A stretch of 64,000 bases of DNA, taken from positions 1-64,000 of the forward strand of contig CAIOHR010000242.1 of assembly GCA_903858115.1 (NCBI GenBank), read 5' to 3'. The number at the start of each line of letters is the position of its first letter. Positions within the stretch are counted from its first letter, which is position 1. A model generated the notes under the pieces. That model had not been told where the DNA came from. It did no database searches and was given only the letters and a program-made list of their open reading frames with translations. A program made the translations under genes and the position numbers. Positions 1,528 to 31,301 of this stretch are shown here, piece after piece. Source of the DNA: an uncultured Pirellula sp. GTDB taxonomy: Bacteria; Planctomycetota; Planctomycetia; Pirellulales; Pirellulaceae.

Positions 1528-1792
1528 TCAAAATCCTAGGATGGGCGTGGTCGGTGTGTCGGGGACATTGGACCTTCCATCCAGCAGCAACTGTAGTCGC
1601 TCGCCTAACTAGGTTGGAAAACGGAATGACCAGCTTTTATCGATCAACCCATTCCGGATCATGTCTGCAAGTTTAGACTCTTTAGTCGCCATCTCGGGCA
1701 GCGGGGATTATTTTAAGGTACTTCGAGTTTCGTCTCGATAGCAAGCTGGTAACGCTAGTAACCCTTCGAAGGCCTTGGATGCGCCGATTCGG

Positions 1793-2560: not shown

Positions 2561-2587
2561 GGATAACAGGTTGATCGGAATGTCGAA

Positions 2588-4150
2588 CTAAGATTGCGTC
2601 CAAACACCATCGATCGAACGCCACGCCTTTTGCGGATTAGAATCCTGCAATACTGCAGGCAGTCGGCTAGGACGAACGGCGTCAAAGCATGTTAGCTTTG
2701 CAAAACGAATCATGCTGGCAGGTATTCCGACGGCGGTAAATCCGGGATGACCGGTCGCAGGAAATGGACCACCATGATTCATGGCTGGACTGACCGCAAC
2801 TCCGGTTGGCATCTTGTCGTTCAGCAGTCGGCCGACCTTCTGCGAAAGCTCTTCGGCGATTGGCTGGTAGATTCCATCATCGCTCCCGTCGGTCGCAGAA
2901 TAGATGGCTCCTGTCAGATTCCCTTCGAGCTGTTCAATCACTTGTTTAAGTTCTGTCATGGAATCGCATACGACGATCAGCACAGCGTTCCCAAAGGCTT
3001 CCGTCTGAAATGAATGGGCGTCGCTCAGGAATTTCTCGCCCGTTACTCGCAACGCGGTGTTGGCAACCGCACAGCGACCACCCTCGACCTTGTTGCCACC
3101 CACGAGTAGTTCTGCTCCAGCTCCGCACAGAATTGAGATGCTCTTCACCAAACTGCTCTCGACGCTTTTGGACAACAGTGTTCCCGCTGGACTAGATTTG
3201 TATTTGTCCGTAACTCCAGAAACGAAGCGATCGGCTTCCTGCGACTTGAGCATGATCAACAATCCAGGGTTCGTGCAGAATTGACCAGCGCCCATCAGGC
3301 CGCTCGCTACATACTCTTCTATAAGTTTTTCGACCCGTTCCTTCATGGCGCCGGGCATGTACACGATAGGGTTCACACTGGAAAGCTCTGCATAAAAAGG
3401 CTTGCCCACTTTGTCCGCAACGGATTTCAATTGCAAACCTGCATTCCTAGAACCAGTGTAGCCAATGGCTGCCAAACGTGGGTCGCCGACCATTCGCTCT
3501 CCATCGACATGCGATGTTCTAAAAAGTAACTGGACCAAGCCTTTGGGCATTCCGGTTTTTTCGATCGCTTGCTTAGCAAGCTCGGCGAATCTCTTGGTCG
3601 TGGCAGGGTGGGAGGAGTTCGCTTTCCCGATAACAGGGTTGCCTGAAGCGATCGCAGCAGCAAAGTCACCACCTGCCAAGCTGTTAAACGCGAACGGGAA
3701 ATTATTGGGACCGAAGACGCAAACCGGGCCAATAGGTTGATAGCATGAGCGGATGTTAGCTTTGGTATCGATTGTCGGCATCGACCACGAACCAGATCTC
3801 GCTGCGGCTGCCGCGAGCTTCAATTGATTGACTGTGCGCGGGAGTTCGACGTCGCCCAAGCGAGGAGTTTTCGGGAGTCCTGTTTCTTCATGCGCTAAAT
3901 CAACCAAAGTATCTTTGTCGGATTGGATTAGATCTGCAAAGGTATCGAGAAACGCAGCGATCTTATCAGGCGACATCGATCGCAACTCTTTGAAGCAGCT
4001 CGATGCGACTTCGAGAGCTTCGTCGATTTCTTTCCATTCGCTCACAGGGAAATCACGCTCCAGTGCTTCTCCTGTCGATGGGTTCGAGGCGCGAAACGAG
4101 GAGGCTGCAACAGAGTCGCGGAAAATGCCGTTGATGTATACTTTTTCCAT
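2588..4150 (-). CDS. 2-oxoglutarate semialdehyde (2,5-dioxovalerate) dehydrogenase
   Basis: An NAD(P)-dependent aldehyde dehydrogenase of 520 residues. The expected reaction is oxidation of 2,5-dioxopentanoate to 2-oxoglutarate, the last step of non-phosphorylating pentonate and hexarate breakdown. Visible active-site elements are FGPNNFPFAFN with the oxyanion Asn150, the cofactor-binding Lys176 (GKANSS), the general base Glu255 (AELSSVNP) and the nucleophile Cys292 (GQFCTNPG). The short ELSSVNP and FCTNPG forms are those of the 2-oxoglutarate semialdehyde branch rather than of general ALDHs. It starts 24 bases after the FAH-family gene, which would supply its substrate. Substrate choice is inferred from family and neighbour. 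Confidence 0.88.
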   Translation of the reverse strand: MEKVYINGIFRDSVAASSFRASNPSTGEALERDFPVSEWKEIDEALEVASSCFKELRSMSPDKIAAFLDTFADLIQSDKDTLVDLAHEETGLPKTPRLGDVELPRTVNQLKLAAAAARSGSWSMPTIDTKANIRSCYQPIGPVCVFGPNNFPFAFNSLAGGDFAAAIASGNPVIGKANSSHPATTKRFAELAKQAIEKTGMPKGLVQLLFRTSHVDGERMVGDPRLAAIGYTGSRNAGLQLKSVADKVGKPFYAELSSVNPIVYMPGAMKERVEKLIEEYVASGLMGAGQFCTNPGLLIMLKSQEADRFVSGVTDKYKSSPAGTLLSKSVESSLVKSISILCGAGAELLVGGNKVEGGRCAVANTALRVTGEKFLSDAHSFQTEAFGNAVLIVVCDSMTELKQVIEQLEGNLTGAIYSATDGSDDGIYQPIAEELSQKVGRLLNDKMPTGVAVSPAMNHGGPFPATGHPGFTAVGIPASMIRFAKLTCFDAVRPSRLPAVLQDSNPQKAWRSIDGVWTQS

Positions 4151-14243: not shown

Positions 14244-15344
14244 ATGCGTGCCCTGATCCGTTACCAATTGCTCTTTTCGATCGTACCGATTGTAACGTGC
14301 TTTGTTGTAGGTTGCTTGCCTACCGAACCATTTCCAACCAAGGAGATGAAGAACGAGCTCTTTACCCCTGAAGCCGTTGGAAAACTTCAGCAATTGGTGG
14401 AGTCGACCATCGAAGACAATCTCCGGAATCGAATCCTACGCGCCGATCGCAATGCTGCTTGGCAAGTGATCCATGGGGCCGTTGCTTTTGGTTCGGACTT
14501 ACCGTTGCAAGTAGACGGTCAGATTGTACCAGCATTGGACTATCTCTTCGCCGGCGGCGATCTACCTGGTTGGGACTTGAGAGCGGGCGACCTGATCCCG
14601 GCCACAAAGCGTGTTGGAATTCGAACAAGTGTTGAGGAAGGTAGCTTTACCGGCCAAGGGCATGTGGATCAGTTCTTGGGTTATCTCTCACAAGCTGCGA
14701 TTCCGTTAACTACGCCGATTCAAGTGAACGGAAAAGAATTTCTCCTAGAGGACCTAGCTCGTCAAGCCCAGCGAGACATCTGCCAAAATCCTTACAGAGA
14801 GTATTCCTGGACTCTCATTGCCATGTGCAATTATTTCCCCAACGATTCTCAATGGCAAGGAACCGATGGCAACATGTGGTCCCTAGAGTCGTTTGTTGCT
14901 TTCGAAGCAGAACAAGACCTTGGTAGCAGCGCGTGCGGTGGAATGCATCGCCTCATGGGGCTGGCACATGCCGTTCGTTGCCGAGAAAAGACGGGCGGTC
15001 GCATGGAGGGCGGCTGGTTGAAGGCGAAACAAGTCGTTCAAGCCTCGATCGAGAAAGCGAAGAGGTTTCAAAACTCGGACGGCTCCTTTTCTACTCGGTA
15101 CACCGTGCGACCGGGAAACAGCGCGGACTTAAGCACATGCTTAAGCGCTACCGGCCATACGCTTGAGTTCCTCGCCTACGCCCTCAACAACGACGAGCTT
15201 GCAGAACCGTGGGTCGAAAACGGCGTGGCGAAACTCTGTCAGATGCTCGAATTAGTGAAAGACAATGACCTCGAATGCGGCGGGATCTACCACGCCCTCG
15301 CTGGCCTAAAACTATACGCCCGAAAACGTCTTCCGCCGAAGTGA
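14244..15344 (+). CDS. Secreted lipoprotein, alpha-toroid-like
   Basis: A 366-residue lipoprotein: a hydrophobic signal (8-24) ends in VVGCL, a lipobox with Cys24 as the acylation site. The mature part is helical. A segment AKRFQNSDGSFS followed by a Tyr resembles the QW-type turns of the alpha/alpha toroid in terpene cyclases and protein prenyltransferases, and GGIYHALAGL near the C-terminus fits another turn. The catalytic DxDD of cyclases is not seen, so an enzyme assignment is not justified. It is next to the secreted nitrilase-family gene on the same strand, 59 bases apart, and may be co-transcribed. Confidence 0.7.
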   Translation: MRALIRYQLLFSIVPIVTCFVVGCLPTEPFPTKEMKNELFTPEAVGKLQQLVESTIEDNLRNRILRADRNAAWQVIHGAVAFGSDLPLQVDGQIVPALDYLFAGGDLPGWDLRAGDLIPATKRVGIRTSVEEGSFTGQGHVDQFLGYLSQAAIPLTTPIQVNGKEFLLEDLARQAQRDICQNPYREYSWTLIAMCNYFPNDSQWQGTDGNMWSLESFVAFEAEQDLGSSACGGMHRLMGLAHAVRCREKTGGRMEGGWLKAKQVVQASIEKAKRFQNSDGSFSTRYTVRPGNSADLSTCLSATGHTLEFLAYALNNDELAEPWVENGVAKLCQMLELVKDNDLECGGIYHALAGLKLYARKRLPPK

Positions 15345-15403
15345 ATTACGTCGCAGAGAGGATTCAAGGCGAAGTCCTTATTTGGTTTCTGAAAGGAATA
15401 GCA

Positions 15404-16771
15404 ATGCTCAAAAATTGTAGTAGCTGGCTTGCTTCGGTCTCACTCTGTCTGCTCGTTTGCAACATCGCTCGATCCGAGGATAAGGTTTCCTTTCCTTTTG
15501 GTTGGAACGCAGAATCACCGCGTCAAGAAATTAGGCCTGAATTTTCCTATGACCCTCATGGTGGTCCAAATGGAACGGGCGCTTTTGTCATTTCACACGA
15601 TTATCGCGAAGGCTTGGACGGTTGGATCCAGAAATCCTTTGATGTGAATGGCGGTGACTTCGTTCGCTTTCAAGCCATGCGCAAACTGACCAAGGTAGAG
15701 TTGCCGAGGCGGAGCGCGCTCGTGCGAGTTCTTTGGCAGGCGGAGAACGGGCGGATGGTATCGGCGGACGTTCCTGAAACGCAGGTTCAAAAACTAGGAC
15801 ATGTCCCAAGTGCCGAACCTGAGCATCCGGTCGATGGTCCGACGAGTGTGGATGGATGGACAACGGTTCACGGCATCTATCGCGTTCCGAAGAAAGCAAC
15901 AAAGGCTATCGTCGAATTGCATCTGCAATGGGCACCGAATGGAAGTGTTCAATGGAGTGAAATTGACTTTGTCAAAACCTCACCACCCCCTCCTCGCAAG
16001 GTTCGGCTGGCATCGGTTCACTTCAAGCCAAACGGAAGAACATTGCGTGAGAACTGTGAACAATTCGAACCGCTCATCGCTCAGGCCGCTCAAGCAAAAG
16101 CGGATCTAGTCGTCCTCGGAGAAACGGTTCCTTCCGCTTCCCCCAACGTGAAACCTCAAAAAGTTTACCAGATTGCCGAACCCATTCCTGGCCCGTCCAC
16201 TGATTACTTTGGAAAACTCGCCAAGGATCATCATGTGCACATCGTATTGAGTCTTTACGAACGGGACCGGCACCTAATTTATAACACGGCTGTTTTGATG
16301 GGACCCAATGGTCAGTTGATTGGCAAGTATCGGAAAGTTTGCCTACCCCACGGTGAAGTTGAAAAGGGAATCGCTCCAGGAAATACCTACCCTGTCTTCG
16401 AAACATCCTTTGGAAAGGTCGGGATGATGATTTGCTACGATGGCTTCTTTCCGGAAGTTGCTCGCGAACTTTCCAATCACGGTGCGGAAATCATTGCGTG
16501 GCCTGTCTGGGGATGCAATCCGCTACTGGCCAAGGCGCGAGCTTGCGAAAATCATGTCTATGTCGTCAGCAGCACGTTTATGCAACCCAAGGACGGTTGG
16601 ATGCTTTCAGCCGTTTACGATCGAGCGGGTGAACCGATCGCAGTAGCTGAAACATGGGGAACTGTTGCGATCGCCGAAGTTGAACTGAGCCAACCGTATA
16701 TCGGCCCCTGGAATCTCGGTGATTTCCGCTCGATGATCGAACGCCATCGACCTGTGGTTAACGATGAATGA
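15404..16771 (+). CDS. Secreted carbon-nitrogen hydrolase (nitrilase family)
   Basis: A 455-residue protein. The ATG at 15404 is chosen because a GAAAGGA ribosome site lies about 7 bases upstream and the next residues form a signal peptide (1-24, ending ARSED). An N-terminal beta-sandwich-like region (30-190) precedes the nitrilase domain (200-450). The catalytic triad is complete: Glu240 (VVLGET), Lys311 (GKYRKVCLPHGE) and Cys344 (MMICYDGFFPE). The family hydrolyses amides, nitriles or N-carbamoyl groups. Export and the added N-terminal domain, which may bind carbohydrate, suggest action on extracellular amides; that is inference. Confidence 0.9.
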   Translation: MLKNCSSWLASVSLCLLVCNIARSEDKVSFPFGWNAESPRQEIRPEFSYDPHGGPNGTGAFVISHDYREGLDGWIQKSFDVNGGDFVRFQAMRKLTKVELPRRSALVRVLWQAENGRMVSADVPETQVQKLGHVPSAEPEHPVDGPTSVDGWTTVHGIYRVPKKATKAIVELHLQWAPNGSVQWSEIDFVKTSPPPPRKVRLASVHFKPNGRTLRENCEQFEPLIAQAAQAKADLVVLGETVPSASPNVKPQKVYQIAEPIPGPSTDYFGKLAKDHHVHIVLSLYERDRHLIYNTAVLMGPNGQLIGKYRKVCLPHGEVEKGIAPGNTYPVFETSFGKVGMMICYDGFFPEVARELSNHGAEIIAWPVWGCNPLLAKARACENHVYVVSSTFMQPKDGWMLSAVYDRAGEPIAVAETWGTVAIAEVELSQPYIGPWNLGDFRSMIERHRPVVNDE

Positions 16772-16944
16772 AAGCCGTGATCCACCACGTTCCAGTTGAA
16801 GTTATCCAGGAAGGTTAGCACTTGAGTCATTACTTTGGATGGGCATAGCCGGCTCGGGCGATAGGTTCTACGATTTGCTCTTCAACAACTTCTCTCGCTT
16901 TGGCAGTTTAGTGAAGTAACCAAGCCATCGGAAACGATGGCGAC

Positions 16945-18708
16945 CTACTCGACCAAATAGGGTTCGAGTCGTCTGAACTCGGACTCAATTTCTGAGCCAG
17001 AGTAAAAGGTGAGGACGCCCTTCAGCTCGCGAGTCTCGCCAACGGGACAATCGGGAAACTTCGGGTCGGAGTGCATGCACGGACACGGCTCGTTGGCCCA
17101 CGAACGATCGCAATTCTGCCAGCCTGCAATAATCCACTTAGCTTTGGTTCCATCATGGCAAGCTACGAACGGCTTTTGAATGAGCTTGTTGTCGTTCGTC
17201 AAAAGATCGAAACCAGGAGCTCGAGCCAACATCATGCAGTTTTGAACGACCAACCCAGTAAGCAATTCTGGCGAGCCATTCTTGATCCATAACGTGAAGT
17301 GTAGCTCGCGTTCCTTCGGCGAAGCCTTGCATCCGAATTCCACTCCATTCGGTAAGCGTCTTGCGACGGACCAACCTGTATCTGAACGCTGCCATTCAAC
17401 AGGTTTTAGCCTCTCACCTCGGATGTCCCAACTGGTAGGGATGTGCGTATGAGCCAGATACATCAGTTCACGTCGTTCTTGCTGCACCCACCAAATGGCT
17501 TCCGGCACATCGGCTACAACATAGGACGATGGGTCCCATGGCACAAAGACACTGAGCTTGGTATCCCGTTGTGGCCGAATCGCGCCGTCTCGAAAACCTG
17601 TACGAGGATGTCTTCCGCCAGGATATGGCAAAACTCGAAGTTGCCCCGCAGGCAGCGAAGTCGGACTATTGATGTTAAGCCGCTCCGTGGCAGACCGAAT
17701 TTCGCTTGTCGTGAGCCCTGTAGCTGCCGAAGCTTCGACTGTGTCATAGTGGTGATCTACCATCATACTGCGCAACCAGAACTCCAACTCTTCATCGTTG
17801 TTTGGTTCACGAAAATTCTGATAGTCACCTTGTTCTGCGAGAATTGCTTTGCGGTCTTGGACGACCCCCATCGGGTCCTTAGGTTTCACAGATGGATCAA
17901 CATACGTCTCTAAATCTCGGAGCGCGATGACTCGGTACCCCTCCACGGCCAAGTGTCGCATATAAAGTTCAAACTTCGTTTGCGGCGTATTCACCCAACT
18001 ATGAGCGGTGTCAGGCACTCCGTGGAATTGCAAAACCGCGATCCGCCCATACTTTGCTTGCTCGACAGCCCGTGTAAAGTCTTCGAGTTCCCAGTTTGGG
18101 CGAGCATCACCAGCGGAGGGAATCAACAGAGGGTGGTCAAGCATGGGTTCGTATGCGAATCCACGTCCTTTTTCGTATTCATACTCGGGAGCACCTCCAC
18201 GACGCGCAAAGCGAATACCCGCTGCCGACAACGCGTCGAGACCAGACGGTGCCAAGGCATTACCCGGCCATGCAAAGCTTACCGGCTTTGGGATCTTGTA
18301 ATCAGCACATCGTTGATTGATTCCTTCAAGCTGCTCGTTCAACTTGCTTAGGTTCTTATCGCTGATTCCCAAATGATCACGCGTGTGGTTGCCGATCTCG
18401 AACCCATCTTTGCTCAATTGCGCTATCTCTTCCCAAGTCATGTAGTCGCGTTTGTTGTCTTTGAAATCGAACCCTTCCGTGATAAAGAAAGTGGCCGAGA
18501 ATCCGTATTTCAAAAGCAATGGTCGAACCACTGTGAAGTGCGACTTGGCGGAATCGTCAAACGTAAGCACCACCAATTTCTCTGGAATTGGATCAGCGGA
18601 TCTTAATGAGCATGTGTTGAGAGTAAAAAAACTGATGCAAATAGCGCTCGACCGAATCCAATAACAGCATCGGGACCAAATTTTCCGAAGCCTGGGGAGA
18701 TCGTTCAT
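16945..18708 (-). CDS. Polysaccharide deacetylase with extra C-terminal domain
   Basis: Started at the internal ATG (MNDLPRL) because a membrane or signal segment (about 17-35, ending near SLRSADP) follows; the longer frame puts 50 unlikely residues first. The NodB domain (40-280) has the metal and base motif TFDDS, the HTRDH histidine pair, and FAWPGN. It should remove acetyl groups from N-acetylated glycans outside the cytoplasm. The C-terminal half (about 300-585) is a separate domain with LPYPGGRHPRTGFRDGAI and CPCMHSDPKFPDCP segments that I cannot name. The gene stands alone on the minus strand. Confidence 0.87.
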   Translation of the reverse strand: MNDLPRLRKIWSRCCYWIRSSAICISFFTLNTCSLRSADPIPEKLVVLTFDDSAKSHFTVVRPLLLKYGFSATFFITEGFDFKDNKRDYMTWEEIAQLSKDGFEIGNHTRDHLGISDKNLSKLNEQLEGINQRCADYKIPKPVSFAWPGNALAPSGLDALSAAGIRFARRGGAPEYEYEKGRGFAYEPMLDHPLLIPSAGDARPNWELEDFTRAVEQAKYGRIAVLQFHGVPDTAHSWVNTPQTKFELYMRHLAVEGYRVIALRDLETYVDPSVKPKDPMGVVQDRKAILAEQGDYQNFREPNNDEELEFWLRSMMVDHHYDTVEASAATGLTTSEIRSATERLNINSPTSLPAGQLRVLPYPGGRHPRTGFRDGAIRPQRDTKLSVFVPWDPSSYVVADVPEAIWWVQQERRELMYLAHTHIPTSWDIRGERLKPVEWQRSDTGWSVARRLPNGVEFGCKASPKERELHFTLWIKNGSPELLTGLVVQNCMMLARAPGFDLLTNDNKLIQKPFVACHDGTKAKWIIAGWQNCDRSWANEPCPCMHSDPKFPDCPVGETRELKGVLTFYSGSEIESEFRRLEPYLVE

Positions 18709-22710: not shown

Positions 22711-22784
22711 GTGGTAGTAGCTCAGTTGGTTAGAGCGTTGGATTGTGGCTCCGAAGGTCGCGGGTTCGAGTCCCGTCTATCACC
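22711..22784 (+). tRNA. tRNA-His (GTG anticodon)
   Basis: A full cloverleaf can be drawn: acceptor GTGGTAG with CTATCAC, D-stem GCTC/GAGC, anticodon arm TTGGA-TTGTGGC-TCCGA with anticodon GTG at 22745-22747, T-arm GCGGG-TTCGAGT-CCCGT. The base before it is G (22710) and the discriminator is C (22784), the G-1:C73 pair that marks tRNA-His. CCA is not encoded. Its 3' half is the attachment site of the adjoining integrative element. Confidence 0.95.
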
Positions 22785-22790
22785 CTTCTA
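22742..22790 (+). repeat. Left attachment site (attL), 49-bp direct repeat
   Basis: These 49 bases, from the end of the anticodon stem through the tRNA 3' end, are repeated exactly at 31253-31301. The copy lies within the intact tRNA-His gene, next to the integrase. Weaker similarity continues to about 22852. It is the tRNA-side boundary of the element. Confidence 0.9.
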
Positions 22791-22941
22791 AATCATCAAT
22801 GTTTTTCTTGGTCGGACGCACTTTTGAGCGTACCGGGAATTTCCCGAGCGACCCCGCAATCCTGAAGCGACTACCGAAAAACTGTCCTAGAAATCTAGTA
22901 CAGCTAAGGTAGAAGCGACAACCAAAACGGGAGTTGTTCAC

Positions 22942-24183
22942 ATGGCAAGGTCTAAATCCAGCCAACCGTCAATTCGGTATCACATCTCAGGGCAGTCAGT
23001 CTGCACTATCCAAGGTCGAGACTTCTATCTCGGCAAGCACGGCACTCCGGAGTCTCTGGCACGCTATGCGCTATTGATCAGGGAGTACCAAGCGAATGAA
23101 TTGTCATTGCCGGAGGACTTTACATCCGATGCACTTCGAGAATTACTACCAAGAGAATTCTCCCAACCAGCGGCAAAGGTTCAGTTGGCGGATTCTCCTA
23201 CCCTCCTGCGTCATTTAACCGTTGCGTTTCTTACTCATGCTGAAAAGGTTTACGCTAAGTCTAAAGCCGAGCTTTCGAGGATTCGGCAAATCTGCAGGGA
23301 ATTGGAGTCTCATGACGGTGGGGTGCATGTCTCGGACTATGGACCGAAGAAACTAAAGGAACAGCGAGAGCGCTGGGTTACTTCTGGGAAATGCCGACGA
23401 TATTGCAATCGGTTGACATGCCTGGTTGTTTCCATCTTCGAGTGGGGCGTCTCGGAGGAAATGATTGAAGAATCGACTTGGAACCGCCTAACGACCGTCA
23501 AGCCACTCCGAGAGGGGCAAACCGAAGCGCCTGAGTCTGTTGTACGAAAACCAGCATGCCTAAATGTGGTACGAGCGACCGTCAAAGAATTATCTCCCAC
23601 CCTAAAGGCGATGGTTCGGATTCACGTTTGCACAGGGATGAGACCAAGTGAATTATGTTCCATGCGACCATGCGACATCGATCGAACGGGTGACGTATGG
23701 CTTTACCGTCCTGCGACCCACAAGAATAAATCTAAGGGACATGATCGAGTGATTCCGATATTGGGAGATGCGCGAGAGGCGATCGAAAACTATCTGAATC
23801 GTCCAAGTCAAGCCTACTGTTTTTCCGCTAGTGAATCCGTTGCTTGGTGGCAGGCGAAAAAGCGATCCGAGAGGAAGTCTAAAGTACAACCAAGCCAGGA
23901 GTCCCGAGCTGTTGAGTCTCCGAGAGTGAAGCCAGGGGAGAAGTACACTCAGGATAGTTATCGTCGTGCTATTGCTCGAGCATGCAAGCGTGCAAAGGTC
24001 GATCAGTGGTATCCGTACCAACTCCGACATTTGAACTTAACAGAGGTCAGGGACGCACTCAGTGCCGAACACGCTCAGGCGATAGGTGGTCACAGTCGAA
24101 TTGACATGACGAACACGTACGCAAAGGCAAAGATTGGAAAGGCAATTGAGGCAGCAAGACACGCGCCAACGCTTGGAGAGTAG
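22942..24183 (+). CDS. Tyrosine recombinase (integrase)
   Basis: Catalyses integration of the surrounding element at the tRNA-His gene. 413 residues: an N-terminal arm-binding region (about 1-80), a core-binding domain (85-185) and the catalytic domain (205-405). Catalytic residues are visible: Arg234 (TGMRPSEL), Lys near 262-265, Arg362-His363 (YQLRHLNLTE), His384 (GGHSR) and Tyr393 (TNTYAK). The usual first His of the box II HxLR is Tyr, as in many planctomycete integrases that read xxLRH. The gene lies 157 bases downstream of the tRNA, the standard place for an element that uses the tRNA 3' end. Confidence 0.95.
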   Translation: MARSKSSQPSIRYHISGQSVCTIQGRDFYLGKHGTPESLARYALLIREYQANELSLPEDFTSDALRELLPREFSQPAAKVQLADSPTLLRHLTVAFLTHAEKVYAKSKAELSRIRQICRELESHDGGVHVSDYGPKKLKEQRERWVTSGKCRRYCNRLTCLVVSIFEWGVSEEMIEESTWNRLTTVKPLREGQTEAPESVVRKPACLNVVRATVKELSPTLKAMVRIHVCTGMRPSELCSMRPCDIDRTGDVWLYRPATHKNKSKGHDRVIPILGDAREAIENYLNRPSQAYCFSASESVAWWQAKKRSERKSKVQPSQESRAVESPRVKPGEKYTQDSYRRAIARACKRAKVDQWYPYQLRHLNLTEVRDALSAEHAQAIGGHSRIDMTNTYAKAKIGKAIEAARHAPTLGE

Positions 24184-24241
24184 CGACAGTAAGCCAGGGA
24201 TGGCATAATCAAACCATTCGCCAAGGGAGTAGCTACCCTCG

Positions 24242-24286
24242 GTCACCCACCGCGCCTAGTCCTCAAGCTGGGCGCGGTGGGGTGAC
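24242..24286. terminator. Strong hairpin downstream of integrase
   Basis: A 15-bp stem, GTCACCCACCGCGCC paired with GGCGCGGTGGGGTGAC (one bulged G), loop of about 14 bases. It follows the integrase stop by 59 bases. There is no T-run, so it is either a factor-assisted terminator or another structured site. Confidence 0.5.
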
Positions 24287-24314
24287 AGCGATTTCTTAAA
24301 ACTTGAGGTACTAG

Positions 24315-25010
24315 ATGTTTGCCGACAATTACGCCCCCCTTGATCATGCCTATAACGCAACTCTGCGTTTGGTTAGTGAGCTCCATCACATACGTGACCT
24401 ACTCAAAGAGTGCGATCAAATTCTTTCGGAAGATGGGGTGTTTGAAAGCGCGAACGAAATTGTTCAGCAAATGGGACAGGAACTAAACACTCTGGAGTGG
24501 ATGATTAAGGATCTAGAGAAATGGTGGAAGCCTTTGGAGTTGTCCGTCTCTGAAGCCGTTGGACGTCTGAGAATTGAAACGCCCCCCGATTCGGTTACTT
24601 GGACCCAGCATGTGCTTGACAAAGCCTGGCGGGCTTGGAACGGGATGAACGTACAGTTGAAGATTCATAAGGATGCCGAGAAGGTAATCCGTGGGATGAT
24701 TAGTTACACTCCAAAACTTGAAGCCCTCACCTGTCTCTCCAATTGGAACCAACGGATTACAAAGGAGTATCGGGCAGGCGGAATAACTATTGAATTTGAG
24801 GGACAGACCACCACCACTGAACCGGGCAAGTCAATGACCACTATTTCCAAGAAGTACCTCCAATCGTTGACAGGACTAACTCCACAGGCCATGACAAAAC
24901 GATACAAGAACGGAAGCAAATGGGGGTACTGCAACATCACAGAAACCACCGTTGACATCTCTGAATCGGCATATCTCGCATTGCAAAAGGCAAGGTCTCT
25001 AAGAACTTAG
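24315..25010 (+). CDS. Unknown element protein, helical
   Basis: A 231-residue protein with no signal peptide and no recognised family. The first 170 residues are helical with heptad-like spacing. The last 60 (ISKKYLQSLTGLTPQ through the C-terminus) read like a small DNA-binding or structure-recognition domain with conserved-looking aromatic residues (KWGYCNITE). It sits between integrase and the excisionase-like gene, where tyrosine-integrase elements often keep a regulator. It is followed by three 10-bp repeats and a terminator, so it may be its own transcription unit. Confidence 0.6.
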   Translation: MFADNYAPLDHAYNATLRLVSELHHIRDLLKECDQILSEDGVFESANEIVQQMGQELNTLEWMIKDLEKWWKPLELSVSEAVGRLRIETPPDSVTWTQHVLDKAWRAWNGMNVQLKIHKDAEKVIRGMISYTPKLEALTCLSNWNQRITKEYRAGGITIEFEGQTTTTEPGKSMTTISKKYLQSLTGLTPQAMTKRYKNGSKWGYCNITETTVDISESAYLALQKARSLRT

Positions 25011-25040
25011 TACAACTCTCTACAACTCTCTACAACTCTC
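25011..25040. repeat. Three tandem 10-bp repeats
   Basis: TACAACTCTC occurs three times in a row, immediately after the stop codon of the preceding gene and just ahead of a terminator hairpin. The 10-bp spacing is about one DNA turn, as for a protein array bound on one face. Confidence 0.85.
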
Positions 25041-25047
25041 ACGATTT

Positions 25048-25070
25048 AGCCACTACGCAGTGGCTTTTTT
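25048..25070 (+). terminator. Rho-independent terminator
   Basis: Stem AGCCACT/AGTGGCT with loop ACGC, followed by a run of six T. It ends the transcript of the 24315-25010 gene. Confidence 0.88.
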
Positions 25071-25126
25071 CGTTTCTATCCTTCGGGTGTGGTATTGAAA
25101 ACACATGCATTCACCGGAGTACACGA

Positions 25127-25378
25127 ATGAAAAAAACAATCGACTACGAGCAAGTTGTTTCTCGGGTATTAAGCGAAGACATACTGAGTCTATCGCAAGC
25201 GCAAAAAGAGCTTCAGACACTCACAGGTCACAGGACAGACAAGGGGACGATTATCCGTTGGATTCGGAAAGGCGTTGGTGGTATTAAGCTCGAGGGAGTG
25301 AGACTAGGTGGGCGATCCATCTTCACGAGCGCTCAAGCACTAAACCGGTTTATTCAGCAACGAACCGCAAGTCTGTAA
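25127..25378 (+). CDS. DUF1580-like excisionase-type DNA-binding protein
   Basis: An 83-residue protein with a winged-helix or MerR/Xis-like layout: helix-turn-helix LSLSQAQKEL...TIIRWIRKGVGG followed by the wing KLEGVRLGGRSIFTS. This is the DUF1580 pattern, common in planctomycete mobile elements. Small proteins of this kind set the direction of the tyrosine integrase (excisionase) or repress the element. The spacing of about 0.9 kb from the integrase gene and the element context fit that role. No direct proof of excisionase activity. Confidence 0.75.
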   Translation: MKKTIDYEQVVSRVLSEDILSLSQAQKELQTLTGHRTDKGTIIRWIRKGVGGIKLEGVRLGGRSIFTSAQALNRFIQQRTASL

Positions 25379-25387
25379 ACGAAAACA

Positions 25388-25420
25388 GCCGATCCGCGAC
25401 GATCGGCCATTCTCTTATTT
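25388..25420 (+). terminator. Hairpin with T-rich tail
   Basis: Stem GCCGATC/GATCGGC with loop CGCGAC, followed by CATTCTCTTATTTTG. It lies 10 bases after the stop of the DUF1580-like gene and could end that transcript, though the T-tract is interrupted. Confidence 0.6.
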
Positions 25421-25443
25421 TGCCCAGCGAGAGCATATCTATC

Positions 25444-25623
25444 ATGGCATCGAGTGCCGAAAAAAACAAGTCTGAACACCGAAGTAAACCGCCATGTTCT
25501 TGCGACTCGTGCTTACGTGAAACCGCTAAGGCAGATCAGCAACGAGCACTAATCTTCCACGTTCTGAAAAGCCTAGCAACGGAAGATGAATGGAGATTCA
25601 TCGAAGCGGAGGTGCGGCGATGA
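25444..25623 (+). CDS. Small unknown element protein
   Basis: A 59-residue polar protein started at the ATG at 25444. It has a short Cys pattern (PCSCDSC) near the N-terminus, perhaps a metal site, then a helical C-terminal half. Its stop overlaps the start of the next gene (ATGA), which implies translational coupling with the replication initiator. No known family. Confidence 0.55.
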   Translation: MASSAEKNKSEHRSKPPCSCDSCLRETAKADQQRALIFHVLKSLATEDEWRFIEAEVRR

Positions 25624-26321
25624 ACTATCCCACCGATCGCAAAAACTCAGGTTATTTCGCAAGGTTCACCAAAGCGCTGTTTGCGTCCAATGCAGTATCG
25701 GAGACAGGAAAAGACGCGTTCCTACTCGTTTTGTATGTCGCATCCATCGAGGACAGAACCCACTACAACAAACCCGCAAAACTTTGGCGTTCTCAGTTGA
25801 TGGAAGCGACTGCGATATCGTCACCAAAGGCAATTCTTGCGGCGAGATCCAAGGCTATCGAGTTGGGTTTGCTGCACTACTGCGAAGGAAGCCGAACTTC
25901 ACAGCCAATCTACTGGACTTTGGTTCCGAGTTGGTTGGAATTGCACATGCGACGCGTTCCAAATCGGAACGTGAAAACTGCGACGCGTTCCAAATCGGAA
26001 CACGAAACGGAACACGAAACGGAACACGAAACGGAACGCTTACAAGAACCCAGTACCCATATACCCAAAGAGAAGCGCCCACGTTTCGAAAAACCATCTT
26101 TGAATGACGTGAAAGCCTACTGCACGGAACGACGTAGTACCGTCAATCCAGAGAGGTTCATGGACTACTACGAAGCGAACGGTTGGATCCAGGGTAAAGG
26201 CAAACCGATCCGAGACTGGAAAGCAGCGGTGAGGACTTGGGAGAAGAATGGCATCAAGAATGCCAAACCATCAACAGACGACGAGTACGAGGACTACACA
26301 GGCAAAGGACGGAAATCATGA
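25620..26321 (+). CDS. Phage-type replication initiator
   Basis: A 233-residue protein with the layout of phage O/DnaD-like initiators: an N-terminal winged-helix domain (about 1-110, FARFTKALF...AILAARSKAIELGLLHYC), a low-complexity middle with (HETE) repeats, and a C-terminal helicase-loading-type module with GWIQGKGKPIRDWKAAVRTW. The last motif recurs at the end of many phage and plasmid replication proteins. It is followed, with an ATGA overlap, by the DnaB-like helicase it would load. Direct repeats inside the gene (25948-26037) look like the origin it would bind. The initiator call is by layout and context. Confidence 0.78.
   Translation: MNYPTDRKNSGYFARFTKALFASNAVSETGKDAFLLVLYVASIEDRTHYNKPAKLWRSQLMEATAISSPKAILAARSKAIELGLLHYCEGSRTSQPIYWTLVPSWLELHMRRVPNRNVKTATRSKSEHETEHETEHETERLQEPSTHIPKEKRPRFEKPSLNDVKAYCTERRSTVNPERFMDYYEANGWIQGKGKPIRDWKAAVRTWEKNGIKNAKPSTDDEYEDYTGKGRKS
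25948..26037. repeat. Iteron-like repeats inside the initiator gene
   Basis: A 23-base unit (25948-25970 and 25979-26001) repeats with a 31-base period; each copy contains the inverted repeat GTTCC-AAATC-GGAAC. It runs into three 12-base tandem units, GGAACACGAAAC (25997-26032), plus a partial GGAAC. Lambda-type phages keep their origin as iterons inside gene O, so this is a candidate origin. The repeats also encode the HETE tract of the protein. Confidence 0.65.
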
Positions 26322-27580
26322 GTGAACGAACGGTACACCACGAACGCGCATTGGTTGGACTTGCGATCACCGATCCATCGACAATTGATCGGATCGAAAT
26401 TGAGTTGGGTTCGTATTCCTGGACGGATGACGTTTGCCAACGATTGTGGCCTATCCTCACCGACATGAGGCGGAAAGGCGATCCAATCGCTGACACGCGT
26501 GCTATAGCGATACTTGCGAGGCAAAAGGATATTTCAGTCGCAGACATTGCCAAACTCGTTACTAGCGATGCTGGCATGGTTGGAAACGATTCCTACCATC
26601 TTGGGTTTCTGACTGAGGAAAGCGATCGTCGGCGGTTGCGTCGAGTTGCAAGTGAGATTCTGCGACGTGTCGAGAGTCCAAAGGAAGATCCATGCGAGAT
26701 ACAAGACTGGGTTGCCAAGCAAATCTACTCCACGACATCGCGAACGGACACGCGCAACGCTGGCGACATCATGATGGAAGTCATCGAACAGTCGAAGAAT
26801 CGAAAAACCGTTTCAATGGTGGAAACTGGACTTGCCGACGTTGATCGGTGCATCGGTGGGTTCCGTGCTGGACAACTCGTTGTTTTGGCAGCACGTCCTA
26901 GCGTTGGAAAGTCTGCACTTGCTGCACAAATTGCGATCCATGGCGCGAAGGAAGAAAACAACGTCCTTTTCGTTTCGCTGGAAATGTCATCGCAAGAAAC
27001 GGTTGCGAGAGCGTTGGCGATGGAATGCGGCGAGCTGGACATGAGATCCATTCTGAATGGCGACTTGGCAAGTCACGAGATTCACAAAGCGGAACAGATC
27101 GCGAACGCCTACACGAAGATTCCGTTAAGGATCGAGGACAGGCGAGGACTCAACATCGATCGGTTAGCAATGCTAGTGCGATCGTCGGCAGCAAAACGCA
27201 AGTTGGGACTCGTTGTCATCGACTACCTTGGACTCATCGTTGGCGATCGAAAAAAACCTCGTTGGGAGTCGATCACCGAGATATCGAATAGCCTCAAGAC
27301 GTTGGCGCAGACGGAACAGATTCCGATCCTAGCACTTTGCCAACTAAATCGAGACTCCGAAGGAGAGGTTCCAAAGTTGTCTCACCTACGAGACTCAGGA
27401 TCGATCGAGCAAGACGCCGACATCGTTATGTTGCTGCATCGAGAGAAACGGAACGCAGTCGAAACAGAACTGTTCATTGCGAAGAATCGTAACGGTCCAA
27501 TAGCGAAAATTCAGTTGGAGTACGAGGCAAAGCGTTTTGAGTTCCGAACGGCATTCAGCGACTTTGGAGACTTTGCATGA
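26318..27580 (+). CDS. DnaB-type replicative helicase (element copy)
   Basis: A 420-residue DnaB/gp4-like helicase. The N-terminal DnaB domain (about 5-115) begins HHERALVGLAITDP. The RecA-like motor has Walker A AARPSVGKSA (Lys198), Walker B LVVIDYLGLI, a following QLNRDSE glutamine motif, and the arginine-finger-type LRDSGSIEQDAD. It starts by ATGA overlap with the initiator. It is shorter than chromosomal DnaB (about 450-480) and lies in a mobile context, so it is the element's own helicase. The ATG at 26318 is chosen over the longer in-frame reading because of the overlap. Confidence 0.9.
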   Translation: MSERTVHHERALVGLAITDPSTIDRIEIELGSYSWTDDVCQRLWPILTDMRRKGDPIADTRAIAILARQKDISVADIAKLVTSDAGMVGNDSYHLGFLTEESDRRRLRRVASEILRRVESPKEDPCEIQDWVAKQIYSTTSRTDTRNAGDIMMEVIEQSKNRKTVSMVETGLADVDRCIGGFRAGQLVVLAARPSVGKSALAAQIAIHGAKEENNVLFVSLEMSSQETVARALAMECGELDMRSILNGDLASHEIHKAEQIANAYTKIPLRIEDRRGLNIDRLAMLVRSSAAKRKLGLVVIDYLGLIVGDRKKPRWESITEISNSLKTLAQTEQIPILALCQLNRDSEGEVPKLSHLRDSGSIEQDADIVMLLHREKRNAVETELFIAKNRNGPIAKIQLEYEAKRFEFRTAFSDFGDFA

Positions 27581-27747
27581 ACTGTCCCGAAATCATCGTT
27601 TTGACGATCAGCGTTCCACCACTTCCACCACCGGAACCAGATGGATGGCAGCGGTTACGACGACTCTTGAAAGCGCTAGTGCGTTCCTACGGTTTGCGGT
27701 GCGAGTCGATCGAGCCAAAACGAGTCGATGAGCCAGGGTCACAATGA
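27577..27747 (+). CDS. Tiny coupled ORF, unknown
   Basis: A 56-residue, Pro- and Arg-rich peptide. It overlaps the helicase stop (ATGA) at its start and the next ORF (ATGA) at its end, so it is probably translated. Nothing in its sequence indicates a function. Confidence 0.5.
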   Translation: MNCPEIIVLTISVPPLPPPEPDGWQRLRRLLKALVRSYGLRCESIEPKRVDEPGSQ

Positions 27748-27965
27748 GGATTCCAGCACGTTGCATCCAGTGCGATGGCAGAGCGATGGTATACGCGACT
27801 GTTCGCCATGCGTCCTTCGTGGTTCGATATCGACGTTGCGATCAGTGCCATCAGACAAGCAAAACAATTCAGATGAAAAAAATCTTGTCTAGTAATCAGT
27901 CCGTTGATCAAGTCGATGCGCCGGGGACAATACAAGGGTCATCACATTCAAAGGAGATCCAATGA
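27744..27965 (+). CDS. Zinc-ribbon protein, Ogr/Delta-like
   Basis: A 73-residue protein with a CxxC...CxxC ribbon in its first 40 residues (ARCIQCDGRA...YRRCDQCHQ), the layout of Ogr/Delta-type late activators of phage P2 and its satellite P4. The C-terminal 30 residues are polar and probably disordered. Overlaps ATGA at both ends with its neighbours. A late-gene or helper-phage transcription role would fit a satellite, but a plain zinc-ribbon accessory protein is possible. Confidence 0.6.
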   Translation: MRIPARCIQCDGRAMVYATVRHASFVVRYRRCDQCHQTSKTIQMKKILSSNQSVDQVDAPGTIQGSSHSKEIQ

Positions 27966-28096
27966 GAGCACTCACACCAAAAGAACAGATCATTCGGCAC
28001 GCGGCAATTCTGCTTGGTGCAAAGATTCTGCGACAGCAAGCAGCAAAGAAACGTAAGCAATCCACCACTAAGCGAAAAGGAACGAAACGATGCTAG
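27962..28096 (+). CDS. Tiny basic ORF, unknown
   Basis: A 44-residue peptide with a hydrophobic helix (IIRHAAILLGAKIL) and a Lys/Arg-rich tail. It overlaps both neighbours, so it is likely part of the same coupled reading. The composition could suit a nucleic-acid-binding or membrane-active peptide; no function can be assigned. Confidence 0.5.
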   Translation: MRALTPKEQIIRHAAILLGAKILRQQAAKKRKQSTTKRKGTKRC

Positions 28097-28818
28097 GAAT
28101 ATTTTCACGAGTTTTCGCAATGCAGAAGGCGGAAGATGATGCGATCGCCGACGAGTACCACTCGATGTTGCTAAGTCTTGCGCGGGGTGAGGAGATCGAT
28201 CTAGAGGATGTTCGTCGGTTGACCATCGACGCAGGTAAATCGGAAGAAGAATGCAGCCGAGATTTAGAGTTGATGCAGCAACGCATCGCAAAGGTTCAAG
28301 AGAAGCAAGATTGGCTAAAAGTCCAAGCCACCATACCATCACTTCAAGCAAAGTACGATGCACTCAAAGCCGAGTTGAACGCAGTCGTTGAACGTATCCG
28401 GCCGCAGCTTATTAAGCTCGAATGGGATCTGCACGCCGCAAGCGATCCGAAGATAGTTTGGATCGACGATTTCCTAAACACCAACTGCTTGAACCAATCA
28501 CTTATCGAGAGGGAAAAGGAAGTCGGTTCGCAACGCTTTGCGCTGGGGGGGCAGAAGAGGACACTGGTTGACGATCTAACGAAAGCCAAGCAGCACGAGA
28601 GCTACTTCAATGCACGTTTGGAAAAGTACGAGAACCGCAAAGATGGATGGAAGCCAAAGGACGCGAGTGCTGTTGATTATAAAGAGCTGCAGGCATCGAG
28701 AGCTGAATGGCAGTCCACGATCATTCAATTAGAGCGAGCGATTGCGGTGCTTGATGAGCAGTTGGAGCCAATCGATCAAGAGCTTGCCGATATAAAAAAA
28801 GAGAAGCTACTTCCGTAG
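28090..28818 (+). CDS. Coiled-coil element protein, unknown
   Basis: A 242-residue protein dominated by coiled coil: heptad-rich segments around 65-120 and 145-235, with Leu/Ile at core positions. The N-terminal 60 residues hold short helices. No signal peptide, no membrane segment and no recognised family. It begins inside the previous tiny ORF and is the last gene before a strong terminator, so the replication operon (25444-28818) ends with it. Its position in an element of this kind is where satellites keep helper-interference or regulatory genes, but that is only a suggestion. Confidence 0.6.
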   Translation: MLGIFSRVFAMQKAEDDAIADEYHSMLLSLARGEEIDLEDVRRLTIDAGKSEEECSRDLELMQQRIAKVQEKQDWLKVQATIPSLQAKYDALKAELNAVVERIRPQLIKLEWDLHAASDPKIVWIDDFLNTNCLNQSLIEREKEVGSQRFALGGQKRTLVDDLTKAKQHESYFNARLEKYENRKDGWKPKDASAVDYKELQASRAEWQSTIIQLERAIAVLDEQLEPIDQELADIKKEKLLP

Positions 28819-28912
28819 TAGAACCAAAGTCTGCGATGGTTTGCTGGGGTCTTACTTTTCTACCCGCAAAAGCGAACGACGGTTCATCGTTGTGACCATC
28901 GGTAACAGGCGG

Positions 28913-28942
28913 AGAGAGGCACGGGTTCGCCTCTCTTTTTTT
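28913..28942 (+). terminator. Rho-independent terminator
   Basis: Stem AGAGAGGC/GCCTCTCT with an 8-base loop, followed by six T. It ends the operon that finishes with the coiled-coil gene. Confidence 0.9.
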
Positions 28943-29070
28943 CATTCGTACCCATGTATCACCACTCCCGTGCATCAAAGGTACTTTAAGAAAACGGCTT
29001 TTTTTACCTGCGAGGGAACCACGCGTTATTTGTTCGAAGACCCTAAGCCTACCTTCCAAAATCCAAAAAT

Positions 29071-29925
29071 ATGCGAATCCGTACTAGACTTGCCGAGTTA
29101 GAAAAAGCCAGCGGCGTTGTTGACATCGGCGATAATCAATTGCTGGTTACGTTGTTAGGTCGCAGAGACGCAATGTTTTGGCCACATCGTCATCATGGCG
29201 ATTCACGACTTGGGGTCCATCAAAAACAACGTGCTTACTTGGATGGCAGCATCGGATTAAGTGCCAAAGCGGATGGCAAGATCAATTGGAAGTCGATGTT
29301 TGAAGCACGGCAAAGACTTATTTCAAGTGGATTCCTAAGCGCTCTGTACAGTGGTGGACAGGTAACCAGTCTTTTTATCACTCCACTGGGTGAGGCTTAT
29401 GCACGTGCACTTGTCGGTTCTCGACTGAAAACCATCCACCAAGGAGTTTTTGCTTACGTGCTGATTCCAGCGGACTCTTGGATAAGCGAAAGTGAGTTGT
29501 TTGGTCAAAACTTGCTGGGCAATCCCGAGGACTGGAACGACATGACGGAATTGGTTCTGCCGTTGTTGGTATCAGGCTTGGTTAAATCATCAAGTGATAT
29601 TCATGGCAGGTGTGGTTATCGTCGCACATCGAAAGAGTTGCTAGAAGATCCACCATGCGTCGATGTTGAATGCGATGAGACGATGGATTCGATCTACATC
29701 AAGGCGTTCAATGCGGAACGACAATCGCTAAAGCAGTGTGAACCGATCGACGCGAATGAGGTTTTCATCCCACTATCGGTCCTCAGTTTGGGCGTAGTGT
29801 CCGACTCGGTCAGCGAAAGTAATCCTCCGCAGCGAACAAGAGAAGAACTTCTGAAGCTGAAGCAAGAGTTGGGAATGCCTGATCACATTTTCGATGATCT
29901 CTTTGGAGAGAAAAATGGCAGCTAA
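29071..29925 (+). CDS. Unknown element protein, winged-helix-like
   Basis: A 284-residue protein. A central stretch (NWKSMFEARQRLISSGFLSALYSGGQVTSLFITPLGEAYARAL, about 75-118) has the helix-helix-wing look of a winged helix, and a second similar stretch follows near 155-185. The N-terminus is a short helix. The C-terminal tail (250-284) is charged and may contact a partner. It overlaps the small-terminase-like gene by 11 bases. The family is unknown; a DNA-binding regulator is the most I would suggest. Confidence 0.55.
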   Translation: MRIRTRLAELEKASGVVDIGDNQLLVTLLGRRDAMFWPHRHHGDSRLGVHQKQRAYLDGSIGLSAKADGKINWKSMFEARQRLISSGFLSALYSGGQVTSLFITPLGEAYARALVGSRLKTIHQGVFAYVLIPADSWISESELFGQNLLGNPEDWNDMTELVLPLLVSGLVKSSSDIHGRCGYRRTSKELLEDPPCVDVECDETMDSIYIKAFNAERQSLKQCEPIDANEVFIPLSVLSLGVVSDSVSESNPPQRTREELLKLKQELGMPDHIFDDLFGEKNGS

Positions 29926-30283
29926 AAAAGGCAAGTTTGACGAACTGTTGGCTGTTGAAGTTGCGGGTGGAATTTCGATCAAAGATGCAGCGTTAAAGGT
30001 GGGATGCAGTCTGACGCATGCGTATCACATCTCCTCTAGTCCAGCGTTCCAAAGTCGAGTTGCATCCATCCGTTCCGAGTCCGTTCAAGGTGCTGTCGGC
30101 AGGTTGTCCGTTATAGCGTCCAGGGCTGTCGATACGCTTGCTGAATTACTCGGTCCACAGAATGACGCACGGGACAGGTTAGCATCGGCTAAAGCGATTT
30201 TAGCGGCATTGCAACCGATCAGTGAACTTGGCGAATTGCGAAAACGACTCGATGCACTGGAAGCGAAATCTTGCCAGTCGTAA
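29915..30283 (+). CDS. Small-terminase-like helix-turn-helix protein
   Basis: A 122-residue protein. The N-terminal half holds a helix-turn-helix (ISIKDAALKVGCSLTHAYHISSSPAF) and the C-terminal half a helical segment (VGRLSVIASRAVDTLAELLG). This layout, with the HTH reading a phage pac or cos site and the helical tail forming a ring, recalls small-terminase-like proteins of temperate phages. No large terminase follows, which would suit an element packaged by another phage's terminase. It also could be a simple transcription regulator; sequence alone does not decide. Confidence 0.55.
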   Translation: MAAKKGKFDELLAVEVAGGISIKDAALKVGCSLTHAYHISSSPAFQSRVASIRSESVQGAVGRLSVIASRAVDTLAELLGPQNDARDRLASAKAILAALQPISELGELRKRLDALEAKSCQS

Positions 30284-30540
30284 CAGATGATTGGATTGTC
30301 AGACTTCGACAGCATTTGGGGATCGTTCCAAAATCGATGGAAAAAATTCCACCGATTATCAAACCGAAACCACCGATTCCAGACCTACCACTCGCATCAG
30401 CATCATGTCCACATCCCGCGGGTTCATTCGAGAAAATCGAGTGCATGCGGGCACGAGCTGCGAACGGTGAATCACTTTTCCATCCGCACGACAATCGGGA
30501 TATTCTCATTCGTCAATCGCATGCGGCACGGGTTGGGTGA
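30271..30540 (+). CDS. Small unknown protein, TTG start
   Basis: An 89-residue protein beginning at a TTG inside the tail of the previous gene (13-base overlap). It has a Pro-rich middle (IPPIIKPKPPIPDLP) and a CPHP...ECMRARAANGE segment. I prefer this frame over the overlapping longer one because its composition is more protein-like. The function is unknown. Confidence 0.45.
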   Translation: MPVVTDDWIVRLRQHLGIVPKSMEKIPPIIKPKPPIPDLPLASASCPHPAGSFEKIECMRARAANGESLFHPHDNRDILIRQSHAARVG

Positions 30541-30994
30541 GCAGAAGAAGGAGCAAGCCGAGACAGGTCAGACTTGGAAGCAATGGTGCGAGGAACAAAA
30601 GATTGCCCGGCAATCTTTTCCAGCACCGAACACTTGCATCTGGTACGCCCTCATTGCTCGCTACCCAGGTGCGTACAAGGCTGGCGACTCCATCAAGGAA
30701 GCGTACAAGCAAGCTGGATTCGATTCATTTGCTGACTACATGAACGAACGGCAGCCGTGCGGGATTAAGAAAGTACATGCATATCGGTTGATAGCGGCAA
30801 TGAAATTGCGTCCTCTATTACCAGAAGTATCCGCGGCGGATACTGAAACCGTTTGGACAGAGTACACCATTCGTCCACTACTCCACAAAGACTTCACGCC
30901 AGCCGATCAGAAGAGAATCCCGAACCGAGCTTTGCAAGCTACTGAAGGACAATCGGCCAGCGAGGAAGAACGGACGACCAACGAAGGAATCTGA
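30521..30994 (+). CDS. Phage-like protein, DUF3102-like, probably truncated
   Basis: A 157-residue reading from ATG 30521. The stretch GQTWKQWCEEQKIARQSFPAP followed by GIKKVHAYRLIAAM has the shape of phage/plasmid proteins that carry a helix-turn-helix-like motif (DUF3102 or ParB-like). It stops at 30994, but a second frame continues the same style of protein to 31133, so the gene is probably frameshifted. Confidence 0.55.
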   Translation: MRHGLGEQKKEQAETGQTWKQWCEEQKIARQSFPAPNTCIWYALIARYPGAYKAGDSIKEAYKQAGFDSFADYMNERQPCGIKKVHAYRLIAAMKLRPLLPEVSAADTETVWTEYTIRPLLHKDFTPADQKRIPNRALQATEGQSASEEERTTNEGI

Positions 30995-31133
30995 GAAGTC
31001 ATTACAAAGTAATGAGTTTCCTGCCAAGCAAGGCAACACCCGTCTTTACATCGAGGAACGCCTAAAGCGTGACCATCCGAAAGTTTGGAAGGATTACTTC
31101 GGTGCACGGGAGGTGTTTTTTAGCCACTACTAA
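30940..31133 (+). pseudogene. Frameshifted continuation of the 30521 gene
   Basis: In the frame that ends with TAA at 31131-31133 the reading GRPTKESEK...QGNTRLYIEERLKRDHPKVW follows naturally on from the gene at 30521, while the first frame ends in TTNEGI. One base gained or lost around 30940-30965 would join them. It has no start codon of its own and is probably the broken C-terminal half of one gene. Confidence 0.55.
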
Positions 31134-31252
31134 GAATACCGAAAATACCGTATTTCAGTACCGTCTATTGCGTTGAGTACAACATTCGTAGTACAATGAA
31201 AAACGCAGGAATTGTGGGTTTTTTCAGCAAATGAAGACCAAGCAAAAAGCGA

Positions 31253-31301
31253 ATTGTGGCTCCGAAGGTCGCGGGTTCGAGTCCCGTCTATCACCCTTCT
31301 A
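31253..31301 (+). repeat. Right attachment site (attR), 49-bp direct repeat
   Basis: An exact copy of 22742-22790 (tRNA-His anticodon loop to 3' end). The bases before it do not complete an anticodon arm, so this is a truncated tRNA fragment and not a second gene. Similarity with the left flank continues, at lower identity, to about 31365. Confidence 0.9.

Follow-up and report, generated by a model that had tools for sequence, protein, structure and literature searches.

A tRNA-His-bounded island in a planctomycete contig is a probable phage satellite of a modular family

We analyzed a 64,000-nucleotide stretch from an uncultured Pirellula sp. (Planctomycetota; assembly GCA_903858115.1, contig CAIOHR010000242.1, positions 1 to 64,000; hereafter the window), in which an island of about 8.5 kb lies between two copies of a repeat derived from a tRNA-His gene (Table 1). 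The island is probably an integrated phage satellite that belongs, with others in Planctomycetia, to a modular family. This reading is well supported by family evidence from sequence: islands of similar size recur between tRNA-derived repeats, their small-terminase-like (TerS-like) protein family is also present in streptococcal satellite phages, no structural genes were found, and the modules are mosaic. The initial annotation had proposed a satellite resembling the phage-inducible chromosomal islands (PICIs). The family evidence upholds the satellite part of that proposal. Packaging by a helper phage is a prediction, and membership in the PICIs proper is doubtful, because the called genes all lie on one strand and sequence kinship to a known satellite was found for the TerS-like protein only.

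The 3′ half of the tRNA-His gene is the source of the perfect 49-bp direct repeats, which are spaced 8,511 bp apart at the annotated coordinates; their similarity reaches 102 nt at 94% identity, because the flank downstream of the tRNA is also duplicated. The integrase was correctly placed next to the intact tRNA gene, and the island combines an integrase with direct attachment (att) repeats at a specific site, as satellites do. Exact copies of at least 20 bp elsewhere in the locus were found for 11 of the 44 tRNAs in 90 related loci versus 4 of 390 random 75-bp stretches; ten of these copied tRNAs bracket terS, and the eleventh brackets an integrase, a primase and a gene resembling o284, the neighbor of terS in the window. 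The GC content of the element (49.6%) does not differ from that of the remainder of the window (50.0%). Ten element proteins were scanned with Pfam, PHROGs and NCBIfam (the small open reading frames [ORFs] o58, o56 and o44 lay outside the scan), and none gave a significant match to a virion (capsid, portal or tail), lysis, large-terminase or conjugation family, in agreement with the initial annotation.

Two genomes of the genus were considered as carriers of an empty attB site and dropped: one (locus L156) has a short integrase-like stretch, and the other (L153, genome G136) has, directly after tRNA-His, an integrase 62% identical to that of the window (1734-2942), with the available stretch ending within the gene. 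The sister genome G544 has a tRNA-His gene and no element protein nearby; it is not a clean empty site, because the flank downstream of its tRNA-His is not homologous to that of the window.

Of 199 genomes in the bacterial family of the window, 17 contain TerS relatives, and the TerS profile A1, with up to 11 candidates scored per genome, matched at least 81 of 397 genomes of the class, with 11 or more matches in some genomes. We compared 59 terS neighborhoods, comprising the window, 18 from the family-genome search and 40 chosen from the class-wide matches. In 11 of them, the window included, terS is bracketed by a tRNA-derived repeat, with spans of 7.7-11.9 kb; an integrase was detected inside ten of these islands, and their tRNA sites are of eight types (His, Val in three, Ala in two, Lys, Ser, Glu, Phe and Pro). 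The genome of the window itself holds a second satellite-like island (L020; contig C350, 2836-10960) at a tRNA-Val, with an integrase, a DUF3987 protein and its own terS, bounded by a repeat of merely 23 bp. The initial annotation had named structural phage genes in other copies of the element as one finding that would speak against a satellite. Seven other elements contain 90 ORFs, of which 63 were scanned and 27 set aside (recognized or separately scanned genes, short or antisense ORFs). Pfam gave 15 families for the 63 ORFs, none for virion structure, and the best 25 of 30 PHROG families at 1e-4 are of DNA metabolism or unnamed, none structural. No structural gene therefore appears among the families listed for these ORFs, a protease among the set-aside genes excepted.

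Several loci hold additional genes. A further integrase-like ORF lies directly past the right repeat of L020, and in L024 two more adjacent recombinase-like genes (15117-17638) were seen near the right end, besides the integrase at the tRNA (three integrase matches counted). At L036 (4100-10415), a terS relative at tRNA-Arg stands beside genes resembling, by eye, a type I restriction-modification system.

The kinship of the TerS family speaks for a link to phages. Seven of nine TerS relatives matched phrog_2538, "terminase small subunit", at E values up to 1 (best 2.6e-9), and three members scanned further gave 2.5e-8, 4.3e-7 and 5.2e-5 against the same family. We examined 20 loci of the large terminase, TerL, out of 38 places listed for 30 genomes, and in four of the 20 a terS-family member lies directly upstream of TerL, with a portal gene beside one. 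The two TerL ORFs read downstream of terS are only 279 and 286 amino acids (aa) long and are therefore remnant-like. When searched against 50,697 phage records, TerS of L008 yielded 13 matches, all of them Streptococcus satellite phages. In a profile comparison, TerS and two streptococcal satellite proteins scored 98.1% (E 8.5e-14, 110 columns), and the helix-turn-helix (HTH) control gave 33.7% (E 4.4e-4, 26 columns). Among phage records, 54 contain the streptococcal protein; 53 are named satellite phages, and the remaining one is an unannotated 11.5-kb record. Short TerL-like ORFs directly downstream of terS relatives were seen at L119-L122, with no full head cluster in view; TerS of L119 had no match in the phage records.

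Several observations weigh against a satellite. The window TerS itself had no match in Pfam, PHROGs or NCBIfam, phrog_2538 included, and a single, irrelevant one in the phage records (E 0.8); the small-terminase-like protein of the initial annotation, and with it the terminase small subunit expected of a PICI, is thus borne out at the family level only. The streptococcal protein is annotated as a hypothetical protein and has no terminase among its PDB matches, and the TerS profile matches solved small terminases weakly (0.044, 0.18 and 0.95), below alpha-repeat designs and proteins. Many terS copies are orphan genes. An integrase was detected in 25 of the 59 neighborhoods and none in the other 34. 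Some of these 34 are short contigs, and in many others terS stands among chromosomal genes, mostly in a single other bacterial family (L075-L094 and similar loci). No relative was obtained when viral_contigs was scanned with TerS (A2), o284 (A7) and the integrase, and searches with phrog_2, phrog_38 and PF04466 revealed no intact helper prophage in the genome of the window. We infer excision, induction, helper dependence and packaging, and the roles of all proteins but the integrase and the helicase, from sequence.

The orphan genes, with at least 11 TerS matches in some genomes, and the lack of a virome contig in the viral_contigs scans would suit a self-excising, self-replicating integrative element that has no phage packaging and whose TerS-like protein serves as a DNA-binding regulator or has been domesticated; to excise and replicate, such an element might need no more than its integrase, initiator, iterons and helicase. 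We consider such an element unlikely, as no relaxase or transfer family was matched in the window element or among the 63 ORFs of the seven others, the TerS family is paired with TerL at four loci and profile-matched to a protein that 53 named satellite phages encode, and phage head genes are neighbors in relatives.

The composition of the elements also bears on their origin. The integrase, the site and the replication genes differ between elements, and the terS end persists. In one genome, the elements L095 (tRNA-Ala) and L096 (tRNA-Phe) have different integrases and sites, yet they share a terS module, with 1,977 nt including terS common at 90% identity and otherwise little (75% over 496 nt and 90% over 218 nt). 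On another Pirellula sp. contig (L135), an o284 that is 87% identical over the first 107 residues, after which the contig ends, accompanies an 877-aa primase and, beside a tRNA-Arg, a recombinase that is different by eye. Loss of structural genes from a prophage, with early genes and a small terminase retained, is a still more improbable origin of the island: it would fit the terS-terL-portal remnants in other genomes (L119) and the occurrence of o284 relatives in prophages, whereas eleven islands that span 7.7-11.9 kb and have terS between intact repeats, the lack of structural remnants among the families listed for the 63 ORFs, and the terS module at 90% DNA identity in two elements with different integrases and sites argue for a repeated design and not for random decay.

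Within the family read as satellites, o284 lies next to terS in seven elements (that of the window, L021, L022, L024, L025, L097 and L098). It was found in 6 of the 199 family genomes, once weakly (5.7e-5), and in at least 8 of the 397 class genomes, with up to six candidates scored per genome; four of these eight are distant. One distant relative (L178) is part of a prophage, where portal (phrog_21) and head/protease (phrog_4523) genes flank it and a TerL lies nearby, two (L177 and L179) lie within 2 kb of tape-measure genes, and the fourth (L180) belongs to a tRNA-Ser island with an integrase and a 56-bp repeat. Because distant relatives neighbor portal, head/protease and tape-measure genes, these data suggested that o284 may be a captured phage late gene. 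The protein had no match in the phage collection and no significant one in Pfam, PHROGs or NCBIfam. A truncated TerL, considered for an RLxxLE-like N terminus seen by eye, was dropped, as no TerL match was obtained, and a winged-helix look, also by eye, was not used as evidence.

A phage head-maturation protease was found in some relatives. The one in L024, which lies beside terS, is ClpP-like (phrog_2976, 1.6e-29), and the protease is also present in L021 (phrog_94, 4.5e-36), L097 (phrog_94, 3.8e-42) and L098 (by tblastn, 45% identity). L021, L097 and L098, which come from two bacterial families, share the order o284, terS, zinc ribbon, protease, coiled coil; in L024 the order is coiled coil, protease, terS, o284. 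In the elements examined, the protease carriers included, we recognized no gene for a capsid, portal or large terminase, and the window element has no protease. Its zinc ribbon and coiled-coil protein are detectably related to the counterparts in L023, L095 and L096; those of the protease cassette are alike by position and kind only, with no detectable kinship. On this basis we tentatively propose, as a possible but doubtful extension, that Planctomycetia have their own tRNA-borne satellite lineage, linked to streptococcal satellites through a TerS-type family that in named phage records is nearly restricted to satellites; some members of the lineage would remodel helper capsids by means of the captured protease and the coiled-coil, scaffold-like protein, without a capsid gene, as a form of capsid piracy.

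As summarized in Table 1, the 13 called element genes all lie on the + strand. The DnaB-type helicase of the initial annotation is firm. The replication initiator matches an unnamed PHROG, and the genes in the corresponding position in L022 and L025 gave matches to helicase loaders of the DnaD-like type and to replication initiation proteins. For the excisionase-like protein the DUF1580 match stands and the excisionase role is putative, and the Ogr/Delta label of the zinc ribbon found no backing, since Pfam offers only a weak DnaJ-type zinc finger. The matches of o242 are weak (E 0.02 and above), phage head and tail families among them. PADLOC revealed no credible defense gene among eight window proteins, and anti-phage cargo was rejected, the matches being only marginal (o242 and a HEAT protein in a relative). 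A strong terminator-like hairpin lies at 24242-24286 between the integrase and o231 (z -4.8 as DNA).

Table 1. Features of the tRNA-His island (positions in the window)
Feature	Position	Strand	Match or remark
tRNA-His gene, integration site	22711..22785	+	ARAGORN
Left repeat (attL side)	22742..22790	+	49 bp exact, 102 nt at 94% when extended
Tyrosine integrase	22942..24183	+	PF00589 4.7e-17; phrog_1 9.8e-31
o231	24315..25010	+	no significant family match (Pfam, PHROGs, NCBIfam)
DUF1580 small HTH protein, excisionase-like	25127..25378	+	PF07618 7.8e-10
o58	25447..25623	+	stretch 54% identical in L022
Replication initiator (putative role)	25620..26321	+	phrog_15768 3.2e-22 (unnamed PHROG)
Iterons, putative origin	25996..26037	+	3.5 perfect 12-bp copies within initiator gene
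DnaB-type helicase	26318..27580	+	PF03796 8.4e-70
o56	27577..27747	+	64% identical in L135
Zinc ribbon	27744..27965	+	weak DnaJ-type zinc finger 1.8e-4 (Pfam); relatives in L023, L095, L096
o44	27962..28096	+	ORF only
o242, coiled-coil-like protein	28090..28818	+	relatives in L095, L096, L023
o284	29071..29925	+	conserved terS neighbor; distant relatives near phage structural genes
Small-terminase-like protein (TerS)	29915..30283	+	assigned via its family
o235	30287..30994	+	weak DUF7188/phrog_1881 only
Right repeat (attR side)	31253..31301	+	

The 12-bp iterons inside the initiator gene form the strongest tandem array of the 64-kb window. The initiator genes of L022 and L025 each have three 12-bp direct repeats, differing in sequence from those of the window. 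In a test for a 24-base period, the window and L022 genes scored 24 and the L025 gene 21; among 72 element ORFs scored as a group, with the window initiator scored separately, the L022 initiator alone reached 22, a value attained in none of 1000 codon shuffles of each of the three genes. Placement of the origin within the initiator gene is known from lambda gene O. The second strongest tandem array of the window, three perfect copies of a 10-bp unit (25011-25040), lies directly after o231.

Large-terminase genes of the prophage type are present in these bacteria, with phrog_2 matched in 19 of 30 genomes and phrog_38 in 10 of 15, and in the carriers G023 and G163 TerL and portal genes occur together (L123 and L124). 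In the genome of the window, we obtained no phrog_2 match at 1e-5 (one at 4.2e-4) and no PF04466 match, whereas phrog_38 matched twice, on contigs 6.2 and 7.2 kb long that have no recognizable head cluster. No helper can be named. One of the phrog_38 matches (L181; contig C21, 713-4219) is a 1168-aa open frame on the 6.2-kb contig, with apparently chromosomal neighbors. A candidate helper type is a prophage, seen in several carriers, that combines TerL-like and portal genes with a fused head/protease gene (L178; also L183, L184 and L186, which by eye alone resemble it).

The satellite would reside in tRNA-His until a helper phage infects or is induced, whereupon the integrase and the DUF1580 protein may excise it as a circle. 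The initiator would bind the iterons inside its own gene and load the DnaB of the satellite, and the satellite TerS would mark satellite DNA for the helper large terminase, which would then pack it into helper particles. For the zinc ribbon, the coiled-coil protein and o284, a part in tuning late expression of the helper, head assembly or packaging is possible.

What is known of satellites derives mostly from a small number of them in bacteria of clinical relevance (PMC10803314). The initial annotation knew of none described in planctomycetes, which is consistent with the open-license PubMed Central literature, the only literature covered, where no article on planctomycete phage satellites appeared among the titles listed. 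A widespread family in so remote a phylum would show satellite life to be general, and many planctomycete tRNA islands would be explained as phage-borne. The TerS family, o284 and the protease cassette could serve as marker genes for viromes, and a protease cassette without a capsid gene yields a specific, testable prediction on capsid hijacking.

By anatomy and kinship, then, the island appears to be a satellite, and by host and gene content a new lineage; with predicted excision and packaging, it would work like a PICI without being filed as one. PICIs have a divergently transcribed master regulator, and no such regulator was recognized in the window island, where all 13 genes are on the + strand and no regulator family was matched in the ten scanned proteins. 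P4-like satellites have a P4-type primase-helicase; the window element has an initiator and DnaB instead (no search was aimed at Sid or Psu). Some relatives resemble capsid-forming PICIs (cf-PICIs) in the head-maturation protease beside terS; capsid-forming genes were not matched in the window element, and relatives have at most the protease. As for integrative conjugative or mobilizable elements, no relaxase, coupling-protein or transfer family was matched in the ten scanned proteins. Satellites are described in PMC13376191 as 7-20 kb long and devoid of virion structural genes, with integrase, excision, replication and packaging genes, and the window island agrees in its 8.5 kb and in the lack of a structural family match among the ten proteins. 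With PICIs and the Staphylococcus aureus pathogenicity islands (SaPIs) it shares an integrase, an excisionase-like protein, replication genes and a TerS-type gene between att repeats, without structural genes (features given in part by PMC13376191); it differs in its initiator and DnaB replication and its planctomycete host. PICIs have been placed in many Firmicutes and Gammaproteobacteria (PMC10803314). The phage-inducible chromosomal minimalist islands (PICMIs) described there are likewise small, with an integrase, a small HTH protein and replication genes, and L020 resembles them in its DUF3987; their site is fis and not tRNA-His, the window element has DnaB and neither the DUF3987 nor the DUF5906 primase of PICMIs, and it has a TerS-like gene, whereas the word "terminase" is absent from the main text of that paper. 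Also among the closest known systems are the Javan-series satellites of Streptococcus, reported as satellite prophages in PMC6813308, whose main text does not contain "terminase". They agree with the window island in size, in an integrase at one end and a TerS-like protein towards the other, and in that no structural genes are named. The TerS-like proteins are related, while the host phylum differs and no other gene was found in common; in two Javan records the integrase is directed away from most of the remaining genes, whereas all called genes of the window island share one strand.

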